NCBI GenBank assembly: GCA_017640685.1 | Contig: JAEPQF010000024.1 | Span: forward strand, 353-35,593 | Length of the DNA stretch: 35,241 nt | Origin: Hyphomicrobiales bacterium | GTDB lineage: Bacteria > Pseudomonadota > Alphaproteobacteria > Rhizobiales > HXMU1428-3 | Reading direction: 5' to 3' | Position numbers and translations under genes: made by a program | Part shown: in pieces, positions 4,618-24,887 of the stretch | How the letters are laid out: every line of letters begins with the position of its first letter | Position numbering within the stretch: position 1 is the stretch's first letter | The notes under the pieces: model-generated | Told to the model about the DNA's origin: nothing | Databases searched by the model: none | What the model saw: the letters and a program-made list of their open reading frames with translations, nothing else

Positions 4618-4862
4618 TATAAAAAACACTCGCAAAAAACTCATATGATTTTGTAAAATACCCCACACAAGCATGCCCCCAAAACAAATTGAGTTTTCAG
4701 CTTACTGAACATCAGCGTACATACTATTGAGTACTATACAAATCAGTCTCAAAGGCAGCAAGAAATATAATTAACAAAAAGTTAACGAAACAAGAACAAA
4801 CGATCTAAATATGCAGAATCTATAGTTATTTTTTTTACTATTTTTAAGTAATAAATGCTCAA

Positions 4863-5501
4863 TTACTGACGAACCCAAACAATCCTAAACATCCACTCAA
4901 TTTCTTTGAGGTCAATAAACTGATCAGGCTCACTAGTTTGCAAAGGGGCCAACTCAATTCTTTTGGCTGTTTTACGGATCAATTGCTTCGCGACGACCTC
5001 ACCATCAAGTAACTTCAGGGCAACCCGGTCTCCCCGCCTAACCTCCGCTTGCGGGCTAACAATCAAGATGTCTCCGGCCCAATAAACAGGCTCATAATCA
5101 TCGACAACAACCTCCAAAGCAAATATATGATCATCACTCACTTCAGGAAAAATAATTTCATCCCATTCTTCAGCAATGGGCTGACCATGCCCATTAAAAT
5201 AATCCGGGCTTCCCGCTAAATCCATGTCTAATAGGGGAATTGAACGTCCAAATAAATCAGACTGAGGGCTTGCATCCATCATAAGCTGTACAAACTCCTC
5301 AAAATCAGCACCAGTTGCCTCTAAAACTTTCGCAATGCTTTCAGTATTTGGCCAACGCTCCCTGCCACTTGCAGTAAATCGCTTAGACTTGTTAAAAGTA
5401 GTTGCATCAAGCCCTGCTGCACGTGCCAAGCCAGAAGGAGAAAGAGTGTAACGTTCCGCAATACCATCAATAGCGGCCCAAATTGTTTGGTGAGTAATCA
5501 T
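4863..5501 (-). CDS. LexA/CI-like HTH repressor with S24 domain lacking the catalytic Ser
   Basis: A 212-residue regulator: an N-terminal helix-turn-helix (about 5-75, with SPSGLARAAGLDATTFNKSKR as the DNA-reading part) and a C-terminal S24 fold (about 88-212). The Ala-Gly pair typical of the self-cleavage site is kept at 96-97, and the lysine of the dyad appears at 172 (DGEVVAKQL). However, the usual G-D-S-M-E-P reads V-D-D-Y-E-P at 133-138, so the nucleophilic serine is Asp135. Self-cleavage on DNA damage is therefore not expected; the domain probably only dimerises. AGAGG precedes the start. Two matched palindromes lie just upstream, suggesting autoregulation. There is no prophage around it, so it is probably a resident chromosomal regulator. 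Confidence 0.8.
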   Translation of the reverse strand: MITHQTIWAAIDGIAERYTLSPSGLARAAGLDATTFNKSKRFTASGRERWPNTESIAKVLEATGADFEEFVQLMMDASPQSDLFGRSIPLLDMDLAGSPDYFNGHGQPIAEEWDEIIFPEVSDDHIFALEVVVDDYEPVYWAGDILIVSPQAEVRRGDRVALKLLDGEVVAKQLIRKTAKRIELAPLQTSEPDQFIDLKEIEWMFRIVWVRQ

Positions 5502-19887: not shown

Positions 19888-22782
19888 TTAATGAGCTTCA
19901 TCCCAATTTTCTGCATGTCGCGCGTCAACTTTAAGCGGTACTTTTAGCTCAATAATAGGTGTATTCGCTTGCTCCATCACTTCGCAAATCAACGGCGTAA
20001 CAGCATCAGCTTTCTCTTGTTCCACCTCAAAAATAAGCTCGTCATGCACTTGCAAAAGCATTTTAACCGGGCTTTCAAAATCAGCAAAAAGCGGCCCAAT
20101 TCGCACCATAGCCCGGCGAATAATATCAGCTGCCGTCCCTTGAATTGGTGCATTAATAGCAGCCCGCTCAAAAAACGCTTTTTGTTGTCTATTATTAGTC
20201 TTCACACCTGGATAATGAACGCGCCGACCAAACAATGTCTCAACATACCCCAGGTCAGCTACCTGTTCCTTAATATTATTCATATATGTTTGAATGCCTG
20301 GGAACCGTTTAAAATATGTTTTGATATAATCACTTGCCTCAGAGCGTGAAATGCCAAGTTGATTAGCAAGACCAAAAGCTGAAATGCCATAGATAATCCC
20401 AAAATTAATCGCTTTCGCCCGCCGTCTTGTCATCGGGTCCATGTCTTTAAGCGGCACCCCAAACATTTCTGAAGCCGTGAGCGCGTGAATATCTTGCCCC
20501 TCGTGAAACGCTTCAATCAACTGCGGTATGTCAGCCATATGCGCCAAAATACGCAACTCAATCTGGCTATAGTCAGCTGAAAGTAAAACATTGCCAGAAG
20601 CCGCTACAAATGCTTTTCTAATCTCTCGGCCCTCAGCCGTTCGAATTGGAATATTTTGAATGTTAGGATCTGTTGAGGCGAGCCTGCCTGTGCTTGTTGC
20701 AGCAAGAGAATAAGATGTGTGAACTCGCCCCGTTTCCTCATTAATAAATTTCGGAAGCGCATCAGAATAAGTAGATTTCAACTTAGATAATTGCCGCCAG
20801 TCTAAAATGGTTTGCGGCAAAAGGCGCTCTTCTTCACTAAGCCCTTCATCAACGGCCAACCCTTCAAGCACACCAGCCCCTGTTGCCCAAGCTCCTGTTT
20901 TTGTCTTTTTTCCACCCTTATAATTGAGCTTCTCAAACAGAACTTCTCCAAGCTGTTTCGGGCTAGCAATGTTAAAGGTTTCATCAGTGAGTTGATGAAT
21001 TTGCTCTTCAAGCTCTGCGAGTTTTTCAGCAAACCCTTTGCTAAGCCCTGCCAAAATAGAGCGATCAACAACAACCCCTTCCATTTCCATCTTCGCTAAG
21101 ACAGAAACAAGTGGTCGCTCCAAAGTTTCATAAACCGTCATGCGTTTTGCAGCAGCCAAGCGCGCCTTTAAAACATGCCATAGCCGCAAGGTCACATCAG
21201 CATCCTCAGCAGCATACTTAGTAGCCTCAGCCACAGGCACCAAATCAAAAGTGATTTGCGCTTTACCCGTCCCTACAATCTCTTTAAAAGCAATCGGTTC
21301 ATGGTCAAAATAATGTTTGGAAAGTTCATCCATACCATGCCCATGCACACCCGCATCAAGCGCATAAGACATCAACATAGTATCATCAATCGGCGCCATA
21401 GCGATGTCTTGCCGCGCCATAACCACCCAATCATATTTAATATTCTGGCCAATTTTCAAAACGGCTGGATCTTCAAGAAGTGGTTTAAGCAATGCCAAAG
21501 CCTCATCCATTGGCACTTGCTCAATCTCACCATCACCCAACAAATCAAGCCCATCCGATGAGCGATGAGTCAAAGGAATATAAGCTGCTTTCCCCGGAGT
21601 TAAAGCAAGAGAAATACCAACCAACTCAACGGACATCGCATCAAGCCCGGTCGTCTCAGTATCAATCGCAACAAAGCCTTGGTCTTTGGCAGCTGCTAGC
21701 CAAGCCTCAAGCTCACGAAGAGAAGTAATCGTTTCATAAAGAGAAGGGTCAAGTGGTACAGATCTCATCTCTTCAAGACTAGCTGCCGCAACAGCCTCTG
21801 CGCCGCCGCCTGGTTCAGTATCACTCCCCCCATCTTGAAAGGGAGATCCAGTCTTCGCCCCCTTTGCTAGCGCTTTGGCCGCCTTTGATGGTTGTTTCGG
21901 CTTTGGCGCCTCTACCCCAAAACTCGCAGCCACTCGTTCTGTTAATTTGGCAAAGCCCATTTCGCCTAAAAAACTTAACAGTCGCTCTTCTTCAGTTTCA
22001 GCTAAGGTTAAACGATCAAGTCCGTCTAAATCAGGCACATCTTGGCAAAGAGTTACAAGCTCACGGCTAATTCGTGCTTGCTCTGCAAATTCGATCAAAT
22101 TTTCACGGCGCTTTTTCTGCTTTATAGTTTCAGCACCGGCAAGCAATTGATCAAGGTCACCAAATTCATCAATTAAAAGTGCCGCTGTCTTCACCCCAAT
22201 CCCAGGAACTCCCGGCACATTATCAGAGCTATCCCCCGCCAAAGATTGCACGTCGATAACCTTCTCTGGTCCAACACCAAATTTGGCAACAACCTCATCC
22301 GGCCCAATCACTTTGTTTTTCATCCCATCAAACATAGTGACGCCTGGTTGAATAAGCTGCATCAAGTCTTTATCTGATGACACAATGACAGCCTCACCGC
22401 CTTCAGCCACGGTTTGCTTAACATAAGAGGCAATAATATCATCCGCCTCATAACCATCTTGCTCAATTCGGGGTAATCCAAACGCGTCAACCGCTTGACG
22501 AATAAAATCAAATTGCGGCACCAAATCTTCAGGTGCTGGTGGGCGATGCGCTTTATATTCAGGGTAAATATCAGAGCGAAATGTCTTGCGAGCCGCATCA
22601 AAAATCACAGCAAAATGCGTTGGCTCTCCGGCTTCCTTCGTGTCTTGCAACAGCTTCCAGAGCATTTGGCAAAACCCGTGAACAGCCCCAACTGGCATCC
22701 CGTCAGATGCTCGTGTTAAAGGTGGCAACGCATGATAAGCCCTAAAAATATAGCTAGACCCATCAATAAGAAAAACCCGCAT
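19888..22782 (-). CDS. polA: DNA polymerase I
   Basis: A 964-residue three-domain enzyme for Okazaki fragment and repair synthesis. The 5'-3' exonuclease domain occupies about 1-290 (FLIDGSSYIFRAYHALPP; GYEADDIIASY; SSDKDLMQL; GDSSDNVPGVPGIG). A linker rich in Lys, Gly and Ala follows. The 3'-5' proofreading domain at about 365-560 keeps its acidic residues (VAIDTETTGLD, KIGQNIKYDW, YAAEDADVT), so it should be active, unlike Taq-type enzymes. The polymerase domain has LLSADYSQIELRILAHM, RRRAKAINFGIIYGISAFGL and LLQVHDELIFEV, all intact. GGAG lies eight bases before the start. It is monocistronic; the 305-bp palindromic element sits upstream. Confidence 0.98.
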   Translation of the reverse strand: MRVFLIDGSSYIFRAYHALPPLTRASDGMPVGAVHGFCQMLWKLLQDTKEAGEPTHFAVIFDAARKTFRSDIYPEYKAHRPPAPEDLVPQFDFIRQAVDAFGLPRIEQDGYEADDIIASYVKQTVAEGGEAVIVSSDKDLMQLIQPGVTMFDGMKNKVIGPDEVVAKFGVGPEKVIDVQSLAGDSSDNVPGVPGIGVKTAALLIDEFGDLDQLLAGAETIKQKKRRENLIEFAEQARISRELVTLCQDVPDLDGLDRLTLAETEEERLLSFLGEMGFAKLTERVAASFGVEAPKPKQPSKAAKALAKGAKTGSPFQDGGSDTEPGGGAEAVAAASLEEMRSVPLDPSLYETITSLRELEAWLAAAKDQGFVAIDTETTGLDAMSVELVGISLALTPGKAAYIPLTHRSSDGLDLLGDGEIEQVPMDEALALLKPLLEDPAVLKIGQNIKYDWVVMARQDIAMAPIDDTMLMSYALDAGVHGHGMDELSKHYFDHEPIAFKEIVGTGKAQITFDLVPVAEATKYAAEDADVTLRLWHVLKARLAAAKRMTVYETLERPLVSVLAKMEMEGVVVDRSILAGLSKGFAEKLAELEEQIHQLTDETFNIASPKQLGEVLFEKLNYKGGKKTKTGAWATGAGVLEGLAVDEGLSEEERLLPQTILDWRQLSKLKSTYSDALPKFINEETGRVHTSYSLAATSTGRLASTDPNIQNIPIRTAEGREIRKAFVAASGNVLLSADYSQIELRILAHMADIPQLIEAFHEGQDIHALTASEMFGVPLKDMDPMTRRRAKAINFGIIYGISAFGLANQLGISRSEASDYIKTYFKRFPGIQTYMNNIKEQVADLGYVETLFGRRVHYPGVKTNNRQQKAFFERAAINAPIQGTAADIIRRAMVRIGPLFADFESPVKMLLQVHDELIFEVEQEKADAVTPLICEVMEQANTPIIELKVPLKVDARHAENWDEAH

Positions 22783-22936
22783 GTTGTATGCTCCAGAGAA
22801 AAAACAAAGAATTGTCGCAACTATGGCATTAATAACAAAGAGGTCAAAGTAGGAAGGTAGATTTTACCAGACATATCCCCATAGCCTTAATTTTAATCCA
22901 TTTGAAATGACAAACTTAAACGATCTCGTCAGCATC

Positions 22937-23241
22937 AATTAGGTCGTAAACTCATAAAATAGTTGATTTTGGCGCCTCTCAAGTCGTTCTTGGCTAGAAA
23001 AACAACTTATACGGGGTTGTTCCCCCATATAAGTTGTTTGACGACGTCAAGGGCGACTTGAGAGAGCGTCCTCAGGATAAGGCCAATTTGGTTCTAGCTA
23101 GCGGTTGCTTTGTGGGCAACTGAAGCCAAAGATAGTCGCAAAAACTTGAAAATAAACCATATTTCCTTCGCTTTCGCTCCTAATCTACAACCAAATTGGC
23201 TCTTACCAAAATTAACTATTTTATGAGTTTACGACCTAATT
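22937..23241. mobile_element. 305-bp nested palindromic MITE-like element
   Basis: Terminal inverted repeats of 36 bp (22937-22972 and 23206-23241) with one mismatch; the core GGTCGTAAACTC is flanked by TA on both sides. Inside are three more inverted repeats: CTCTCAAGTCG (22976-22986) with CGACTTGAGAG (23054-23064); AAACAACTTATA (23000-23011) with TATAAGTTGTTT (23028-23039), topped by GGGG/CCCC; and GCCAATTTGGTT (23082-23093) with AACCAAATTGGC (23189-23200). No coding potential. The TA flanks suggest mobilisation by an IS630- or IS5-type transposase in trans, but no such gene is here. Confidence 0.8.
23101..23127. repeat. GTTGC/GCAAC hairpin inside the palindromic element
   Basis: GTTGC (23104-23108), loop TTTGTGG, GCAAC (23116-23120), then TGAAGCC. 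It matches the units of arrays 1 and 2, linking those repeats to this element. Confidence 0.7.
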
Positions 23242-23261
23242 TATTTATAAAGACAACCCAC

Positions 23262-24887
23262 TCAATCTTTCTTGGGCCGCGCAGCCTCTTCCCCAAACTT
23301 CTCAGCAATATACCCTTTGAAATATTCATCAAGCATAGGAAAACCTTTAGCGAACCGTTTAAAGTCATCTCGCGCCACCCAAAGACAGACAGAATCTTCC
23401 GTCGCTTTTACTTTGCCTGTCCGCTTGTCACGACCAAGAATAATCCGCTCACCAAAATGCTGCCCCGGGCCATACTCACGGTGAATATGTTTGCCAGTTT
23501 CAGCATCTTTAAAATCGAGCTCAAAACCGCCTTCAATCACCGTGTAAAAGCCGTCGGCAATCATCCCACGATCGAAAACAACATCCCCTTTTCTAAAGTG
23601 AACATATTTGGTTGCAGCCTTCGTTGGCGGTTCAATCAAAGATATATTGCGCGGCACAAATGAATGTAGCGTCCAGTTTAAGAAAACTCGCATCTTGGTC
23701 ACAAAACCTGGCAAGAAGGAGAGATAAAATGAGCGCCATAAAACCCAAGCCATAAAGCCTTTTAATTTAATACCATTTACTTCAGCAACAGCTTTCGATG
23801 CTCCAAGAGACGCCATAGAGCCCTGGCTCACATAAGCAAATTCCTTAAGCTCCCAGCCATTAAGCACCCGGCGAATATTCAAGCCCAATTGCTTGCCTTC
23901 ACGCACAGCAAATTGCGCCGTAGGCGGCGCAAAATCATGGCGCTCAGTTGGGGTATCAGAAAGCGGAATAAGCGCCGCATCACCCAGCGCCCATACATCT
24001 TCTTTCCCTGGCACACGCATGCAGCGATCAACTTTAATTTTCCCCCACTGCATCTCAAGTCCAAGTTTCTCAACAAGAGGGTTCGGGCCCGTTCCAATGG
24101 TCGCAACAACAGTTTTCGTTTGAATAATTTCACCAGTTGATAATTCAGCACTTGTCCCAGTGGCTGAGTTCACACCAACACCGGTTAAAACCTCAATATT
24201 GTGTTTCTCAAGTTGTTTCTGCGCATATTCACCTAACGAAGCTGGTAATTCGAGCAAAATCCGATCGGCAAATTCAATCAATTTCACATTAATCTCATCC
24301 GGCGAAATGTTCGGGAAAAATTTAAGCGACTTATCAATCAAGTGCTTCACTTCACCAACAGTCTCAACACCTGAAAACCCGGCACCAACCACAAGAAACG
24401 TCAAAAGTCGTTTTTTAATTTCAGGCACTTGCGCCACATCAGCATGCTCAAGACAACGAATAACATGATTGCGCAAGGTAAACGCATCACCCATATATTT
24501 CATGGTAAGTGCGTGTTCGGTCATGCCCGGAAAACGGGATAAATCAGCCGTTTGCCCCATAGCCAAAACCAACTGATCATAACTCACTTCAACCGGCATC
24601 CGTTTTGTGCCTTGTAAAACGGTAATCACTTTTTCATCAAAATTAACATCAATCACTTCCGCCAACCGCACTTGAATATTCTTCAAAAGCAAACGAAGAG
24701 ATGTAATCGCATCTGATGAATTAATGCCACCGCCAGCGACTTCAGGCAATAGGGGTTGAAAGACAAAATAATTATCTTTATTGATCAACTCAATATCAGC
24801 ATCTTTGCCCATTTTACGGCGAAGTTCTTTGGCGGCAAACACCCCAGCAAAACCACCACCAATAATAACAATTTTTTTCTTGGCCAT
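23262..24887 (-). CDS. Type II NADH dehydrogenase-like flavoprotein fused to a cyclic-nucleotide-binding domain
   Basis: A 541-residue protein. Residues 1-410 are an NDH-2-like oxidoreductase: FAD motif IVIIGGGFAGVFAAKEL (6-22), FQPLLPEVAGG, NAD motif FLVVGAGFSGVETVGE near 165, and VWALGDAA near 300; a hydrophobic amphipathic stretch (FMAWVLWRSFYLSFLPGFVTK) near 380-400 is the membrane anchor. Residues about 425-525 form a cNMP-binding-like domain (FRKGDVVFDRGMIADGFYTVIEGGFEL, then GPGQHFGERIILG). The usual enzyme ends near 430, so the extra domain is a fusion. Inference: electron flow from NADH to quinone may be tuned by a nucleotide ligand. GAGGGGG precedes the start. Confidence 0.88.
   Translation of the reverse strand: MAKKKIVIIGGGFAGVFAAKELRRKMGKDADIELINKDNYFVFQPLLPEVAGGGINSSDAITSLRLLLKNIQVRLAEVIDVNFDEKVITVLQGTKRMPVEVSYDQLVLAMGQTADLSRFPGMTEHALTMKYMGDAFTLRNHVIRCLEHADVAQVPEIKKRLLTFLVVGAGFSGVETVGEVKHLIDKSLKFFPNISPDEINVKLIEFADRILLELPASLGEYAQKQLEKHNIEVLTGVGVNSATGTSAELSTGEIIQTKTVVATIGTGPNPLVEKLGLEMQWGKIKVDRCMRVPGKEDVWALGDAALIPLSDTPTERHDFAPPTAQFAVREGKQLGLNIRRVLNGWELKEFAYVSQGSMASLGASKAVAEVNGIKLKGFMAWVLWRSFYLSFLPGFVTKMRVFLNWTLHSFVPRNISLIEPPTKAATKYVHFRKGDVVFDRGMIADGFYTVIEGGFELDFKDAETGKHIHREYGPGQHFGERIILGRDKRTGKVKATEDSVCLWVARDDFKRFAKGFPMLDEYFKGYIAEKFGEEAARPKKD

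Follow-up and report, generated by a model that had tools for sequence, protein, structure and literature searches.

Here we report that an inverted-repeat feature lying between polA and an NDH-2 gene in a 35,241-nucleotide stretch of a Hyphomicrobiales genome (the window, meaning the whole stretch that was analysed) is a mobile gene-less element (MITE) and not a local RNA. The family to which it belongs has a common fold consisting of a terminal stem, hairpin A, a mini hairpin and hairpin B, in that order. We consider it probable that this MITE inserts at YTAR with duplication of TA, is moved in trans by an IS427-like helper, and has its hairpins A and B maintained as opposite single strands. 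Under this model, the element would enter a YTAR site and duplicate its TA, an IS5-family, IS427-like transposase supplied from elsewhere would act on the TAGG...CCTA terminal repeats, and, on any strand that becomes transcribed or exposed, the hairpin closest to its 5' end would fold well. We infer both that the IS427-like group is the mover and that the single-strand fold matters.

The window copy and its relatives at other loci

The four inverted repeats mentioned by an earlier note on this DNA were all confirmed in the window sequence (Table 1), as were the near-identical 36-bp ends, which match at 97% with one mismatch. The palindromic element is real, but its length, put at 305 bp, comes to 299 bp when measured from TA to TA. 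The description of nested palindromes holds in that the element folds over nearly its whole length, except that about 32 bp within hairpin B are a separate, nested repeat. As RNA, the region 22937-23241 is predicted to fold with -142.9 kcal/mol, compared with a mean of -66.95 for shuffled sequences (z = -16.4; 0 of 100 shuffles as low). The earlier statement that there is no coding frame agrees with our finding that the longest ORF wholly within the element is 38 aa; a 155-aa ORF (23196-23663, plus strand) overlaps its right end. The location was likewise correctly given, the element being flanked by polA (19888-22782, minus strand) and by a cNMP-domain NDH-2 gene (23262-24887, minus strand). 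A TA duplication is assigned to the window copy because its sister copies have empty sites.

Table 1. Features of the element in the window (positions are those of the window)
Feature	Position	Strand	Remarks
Whole element copy, TA to TA	22940..23238	+	Hairpin A first; match to model R1 with 201.1 bits; other copies
Terminal arms	22934-22972 / 23206-23244		39 nt, 95%
Left terminal inverted repeat	22940..22972	+	TAGGTCGTAAACTCATAAA...; TA assigned to the target duplication (one of its two copies)
Right terminal inverted repeat	23206..23238	-	CCTA at its end
Terminal helix of the predicted fold	22937-22972 paired with 23206-23241		
Inner inverted repeats	22976-22992/23048-23064; 23000-23016/23023-23039; 23082-23097/23185-23200		
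Hairpin A	22973..23068	+	Family folds better on the plus strand; match to model R2 at 22975-23065, plus strand
Central mini hairpin (TCC...GGA)	23069..23077	+	Predicted fold; one helix of the family structure
Hairpin B	23078..23205	-	Family folds better on the minus strand; broken here by the nested repeat
Nested insertion of a dispersed short palindrome	23102..23133	+	Approximate limits; core GCGGTTGCTTTGTGGGCAACTGAAGC at 23101-23126

The window copy thus consists of the usual element of about 267 bp and an insert of about 32 bp in hairpin B. The nested palindrome has at least 22 other matches in its own genome (40 of 121 candidates were scored), and the insert is missing at the same position in the sister copies L031, L032, L033 and L037; by eye, similar short repeats occur at different positions in L038 and L009. 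The dispersed palindrome of about 26 bp comes in two stem versions, GGTTGC/GCAAC and GGATGC/GCATC, often in tandem (L011-L030), and was also matched in five further genomes of the genus (G001, G002, G003, G004 and G007).

Searching the genome and its relatives for the terminal repeat, as the earlier note had suggested, yielded further copies in the own genome and in the genus. The own genome contains a diverged full-length copy on contig C195, one partial copy (75%) at a contig end, and two others cut by contig ends. Two-ended copies were found in the genus genomes G001, G003, G006 and G007. When used as a DNA query, the G001 copy matched five of the eight genus genomes and gave no match in G002, G004 and G005; the covariance model described below produced one weak match in G005. 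Empty sites, the other check proposed, were clean for three genus copies, with the flanks joined at one TA each. Joined-flank queries located the empty site of L031 in G001, G003 and G000 (the junction in G001 being identical over 122 bp), that of L033 in G007, G003 and G000, and that of L037 in G007 and G003. The element therefore has several of the features by which a MITE is recognised: terminal repeats, a small size without a transposase gene, multiple copies and, for the sister copies, empty sites with target duplication.

For flank joining and locus searches, the window copy was cut out as 22940-23239, one base over. No base-for-base empty site was found at the window locus; L055 and L056 align with both flanks of the window copy and have an unlike intergenic region with a different flank. 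The covariance model detected no element near the NDH-2 gene in six relatives (L055-L060), among which L060 and L058 have little or no polA side. A single copy conserved at this locus in distant relatives, which had been named as the sign of a local regulatory RNA, is not what we observed, since copies lie elsewhere and the model detected no element at the loci of the six relatives. We infer that this copy plays no particular role at the polA/ndh locus. In L055, the stretch separating the NDH-2 gene from the polA side holds a 189-aa reverse-strand ORF (4641-5210), and the window flank 22898-22939 resembles a remnant of the 3' end of this ORF. In L058, the corresponding intergenic space, downstream of NDH-2, contains a long inverted repeat that is unrelated by eye.

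Solitary ends were also recorded. At 20 places, one end motif occurs for which the surrounding stretch offers no partner with 6 mismatches or fewer, and about four of these places (L123, L125, L127 and L128) continue by eye into the element interior. An end motif of 20-23 bp stands alone, with neither partner nor interior, at L116-L122, L124 (own genome), L126 and L129-L135. Several of the solitary motifs are located, by eye, at gene ends; L126/L135 and L130/L134 are apparently the same sites in different genomes, and the G001 ortholog of L117 is without most of the motif.

Spread, fold and strand preferences of the family

A family covariance model built from 8 copies matched at least 63 of 249 genomes and at least 40 of 111 genera of the order, as well as at least 15 of 289 genomes in a class-wide draw that includes the window's own genome (14 of the 288 others); these counts are lower bounds, with 6 or 7 candidates scored per genome. 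Despite wide sequence divergence, including that of the ends, the length stays within 264-272 bp in 53 of 60 aligned copies; the 60 rows represent the best strand per place among the top matches and are biased to full-length copies, and the matches outside this set include some truncated and some longer ones. Relatives were also found on plasmids, two from Nitratireductor and one from Phyllobacterium (69-70% over 75-82% of the query); a second query for plasmid relatives found none. G050 has 31 match rows at 30 places (26 nearly full-length), and its copies L244-L263 form, by eye, three subfamilies with different terminal repeats, which are 68-78% alike between and mostly 91-95% alike within subfamilies in a sample of pairs. 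The 57 + 47 end-motif matches in G132 suggest a burst, and the interior of hairpin B is inverted between the G132 copies L170 and L171. A model of hairpin A alone detected at L188 (G044; 1124-1389) a second 266-bp element adjoining a typical copy. Its ends are quite different (TAGACCCTTTC..., TAGACCC...GGGTCTA) and its two-arm fold is alike (-164.9 kcal/mol). This second element, found only via the hairpin-A model, is a more distant subfamily, and the family is wider than the full covariance model. By eye, two more short palindromes lie between it and the typical copy.

Copies from other families of the order have the same architecture in a different sequence: the predicted folds for G147, G132 and G217 have z scores from -7.3 to -17.2, and a copy from G025 folds more weakly (z = -4.6; 30 shuffles each). 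In an alignment of 40 diverse copies made without structure, 92.0% of the cells of the 79 predicted pairs are paired; shuffled controls reach 62.7% (none of 500 as high) and slid ones 31-43%. Both-sided changes occur at 74 of the 79 pairs; the 40 rows were chosen by hand without nested inserts, and the tested structure comes from the same rows, so that covariation is partly built in. In the inner columns, conservation is 0.60 for unpaired and 0.61 for paired positions. Among 15 close copies from G050 (about 93% alike), we counted 7 perfectly compensated double changes (5 in the terminal stem and 2 in hairpin A), 3 non-pairing double changes and 65 one-sided changes; these counts omit 28 one-sided changes at pairs with a non-Watson-Crick consensus, and three of the ten double changes fall at one pair. 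Some arm-to-arm copying occurs, because compensated doubles are present in close copies and the hairpin-B interior is inverted in G132. The Rfam search gave no curated family at the gathering score; allowing E values up to 1 added one weak match.

Hairpins A and B differ in the strand on which they fold better. In hairpin A, the modelled (plus) strand has the lower folding energy in all 40 copies (mean difference -9.0 kcal/mol), and in hairpin B the opposite (minus) strand is lower in 37 of 40 (mean 8.6). Dinucleotide shuffles account for only -3.5 (A) and 1.9 (B) of these means, and the strand difference exceeds that of a copy's own dinucleotide shuffles in 37 (A) and 39 (B) of the 40 copies. 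With DNA folding parameters the signs are unchanged (40/40 and 37/40). The ratio of GU to AC wobble follows the same pattern: in the 40 copies it is 40/16 in hairpin A, 16/33 in hairpin B (33/16 when read on the minus strand) and 43/39 in the terminal stem. A model-fitted 60-row alignment gave 138/44 for A, 16/83 for B, 36/29 for the terminal core and 64/20 for its extension (254/176 in total), and the 15 close G050 copies gave 15/5, 3/9 and 8/8 for A, B and the terminal stem (26 vs 22 for the whole). Over whole elements, wobble is even (GU 99 and AC 89 of 3,145 cells), and the modelled strand is lower in 33 of 60 whole elements and in 27 of 60 for the inner part. A conclusion that there is no strand bias, and hence that the structure is one of DNA, was dropped, since the whole-element totals sum the opposite biases of A and B; two true, cancelling biases can hide in a whole-element strand test. 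As a control, two stems of 19 tRNAs contained 14 GU and 0 AC pairs, in a small set for which ARAGORN picks paired stems. G-U pairs make up 3-7.5% of hairpin pairs on the preferred strand and 6.1% in this small tRNA control.

Because the fold biases of A and B are opposite and beyond composition, and the wobble bias matches them, the hairpins look as if they were selected as single strands, which may be RNA or single-stranded DNA (ssDNA), one per strand. With such opposite preferences, no single transcript would be favoured, so that the large structured RNA suggested in the earlier note is one option beside ssDNA. The terminal stem, with little or no bias, we read as acting like ordinary transposon ends. 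Sequence comparisons also touch on how A relates to B, which may or may not be an inverted form of A by descent. The hairpin-A model gave opposite-strand matches to B in 2 of 38 sources (L267 and L265) and no same-strand match in any, and it also matched A's own reverse strand in L188. Sequence profiles of A and B recognised each other in 1 of 40 copies each way at E up to 0.01 (controls 0). The motif order AGG..TCAA..(A/G)ACG is present in 7 of 40 plus-strand readings of A and 22 of 40 minus-strand readings of B, and in 0 of 40 for the other two readings.

Target site and candidate helper transposase

TA is found at the element start in 42 and at its end in 45 of the 60 aligned copies, the remaining 18 and 15 having no TA at the model boundary. 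A pyrimidine (C or T) precedes TA in 40 of 42 cases and a purine (A or G) follows it in 42 of 45, which defines a YTAR target. The earlier proposal of transposition at TA by a Tc1/IS630- or IS5-like enzyme acting in trans stands as far as the element is TA-transposable and its ends match those of the IS5 family, but no helper was found in the genus; likewise, full-length insertion sequences with the same or similar ends were of the IS5 family and came from other genomes of the order, with none in the genus. A putative IS427-like partner in the genus would have the ends TAGGYCGTARACTCATAAA.

Run over 249 genomes of the order, the end pattern matched 43, and it led to the following full-length insertion sequences. 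An 845-bp insertion sequence in G154 has exact ends, including the 18-base end pattern; one of 845 bp in G126 has one exact end and two mismatches in the other, and its second half contains an in-frame stop; and one of 841 bp in G056 has ends with 1 and 2 mismatches. The split ORFs of all three score as halves of an IS5-family transposase. PMC3281130 tabulates the IS427 group as elements of 832-865 bp that mostly make 2-bp duplications and usually carry a pair of frameshifted ORFs, and our insertion sequences fit this group because their length, split ORFs and 2-bp duplication agree with that table. In G030, a 1,249-bp bracket also contains split transposase-type ORFs. More generally, brackets of inverted ends spaced 827-1,116 bp apart, with at least 16 of 20 matching ends, were present at 19 of 30 loci and missing at 11; these loci span 12 genomes, and some are the same place or identical copies. 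The insertion-sequence ends are similar to local MITE ends in G085 and G044, and loosely in G047; those examined in G050, G149, G119, G086, G217, G132 and G067 are unlike the local elements with which they were compared.

The transposase family NF033580 matched 18 of 20 chosen genomes (17 above the cut-off), three of which had been chosen for holding the insertion sequence; in G014 and G036 the element is present and no NF033580 match was found. None of the 8 genomes of the window's genus matched NF033580, and PF01609 occurs in the genus genomes at only two places, elsewhere. Genomes assembled from metagenomes (MAGs) often lose insertion sequences. The genus insertions look recent, though no helper was found in the genus. 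From sequence likeness, the most likely mover is an IS5-family, IS427-like transposase that would recognise the TAGG...CCTA ends in trans.

Competing explanations and related systems

The element occupies most of the space between polA and the NDH-2 gene, as a regulatory structure serving these two genes might; further copies elsewhere and the lack of any element in L055-L060 make such a local role extremely improbable, and the candidate of a local regulatory RNA was rejected on account of the copies elsewhere and the lack of an element at these loci. We also find it unlikely that the fold has no function, its arms being copied onto each other by template switching or recombination and its motifs shared by descent. 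Such passive arms agree with the seven compensated doubles among 15 close copies, the G132 copy whose hairpin B is inverted inside, the even wobble of the whole element (99 vs 89) and of the terminal stem, and unpaired inner columns that are conserved no better than paired ones (0.60 vs 0.61). However, they predict no strand preference within a hairpin, whereas A and B are both biased, in opposite senses, and they sit poorly with a length of 264-272 bp in 53 of 60 copies.

Selection of the hairpins as single strands could concern either nucleic acid. The hairpins may act as RNA, so that a transcript entering from either side would meet a folded hairpin first, which might end, process, protect or tag the transcript or bind a factor; we hold this view tentatively, as a possibility short of probable. 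The opposite strand biases of A and B beyond composition, the wobble bias, which runs in the same direction in three data sets, and the conserved unpaired motifs all point this way, and transcripts of ERIC and NEMIS offer a precedent in the sections of PMC2229807 consulted. Against RNA speak the lack of an Rfam match at the gathering score, the persistence of the bias with DNA parameters, and the gene context: by rough ORF calls, tandem-gene orientation was the same in 12 cases and opposite in 12, and 23 of 60 called places lie between divergent genes (80 places were considered, including 20 added from G050, two of them repeats, and 20 could not be called). Alternatively, the hairpins may act as ssDNA, for example on a strand exposed at replication forks and bound by the transposase or a host factor, in which case the inverted pair would make the element indifferent to fork direction. 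This we regard as rather unlikely, although the bias keeps its sign with DNA parameters (40/40 and 37/40), the element is mobile and has no gene, and wobble in the terminal stem is near even (43/39). The likely helper is a DDE transposase, and DDE transposases act on double strands. RNA is slightly favoured over ssDNA because the G-U frequencies of the hairpins are near those of the tRNA control.

Bacterial MITEs are commonly regarded as deletion derivatives of a single insertion sequence that do not last long. In this family, an architecture of near-fixed length persists class-wide though replacement has reached most of the base pairs, those of the ends among them, and either strand offers a well-folding hairpin. 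Should the fold be needed, gene-less elements can undergo long-term selection and may switch helpers. We put forward, with less than even confidence, an old, class-wide gene-less lineage whose strand-tuned inverted hairpins act single-stranded in its spread or tolerance, irrespective of the orientation of insertion, and whose ends drift with local IS427-like elements.

MITEs moved in trans and palindromic repeats of alphaproteobacteria are already known. Our literature search, which covered few subscription journals, recognised no earlier description of this element family and found no class-wide MITE with an opposite-strand hairpin pair and changing ends. REPINs, which are REP pairs moved by a REP-associated tyrosine transposase, have an inverted hairpin pair in small mobile DNA and are much shorter than the window element. 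They are the subject of PMC3116915 and belong among the closest known systems. RUP of pneumococcus is likewise gene-less, with IS-like terminal repeats and a TA target, but it belongs to a different phylum and has IS630-Spn1 as helper, and a class-wide paired-hairpin interior is not described in the consulted passages of PMC2229807. ERIC (also IRU or RU-1) is similarly palindromic, intergenic, TA-ended and highly base-paired, and is set apart by its description as a 127-bp enterobacterial element with 7-bp terminal repeats (PMC2229807). CIR of Caulobacter and Brucella shares the alphaproteobacterial host and the two arms with a linker (PMC2229807); at about 110 bp and without terminal repeats, it differs from the 299-bp window element with its 36-bp repeats, which is therefore not a CIR, and the GANTC motif of CIR lies within the terminal repeat of just 14 of 60 elements here. 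Br-REP1 and Br-REP2 of Bradyrhizobium are also alphaproteobacterial palindromic repeats, but much shorter, and their printed consensus is by eye unlike the window element (PMC5082802). The IS427 group of the IS5 family has the TAGG...CCTA ends and the TA target in common with the window element; its members are insertion sequences that measure about 841-847 bp and carry a split transposase gene, whereas the window element is gene-less, and the likeness lies in the ends.
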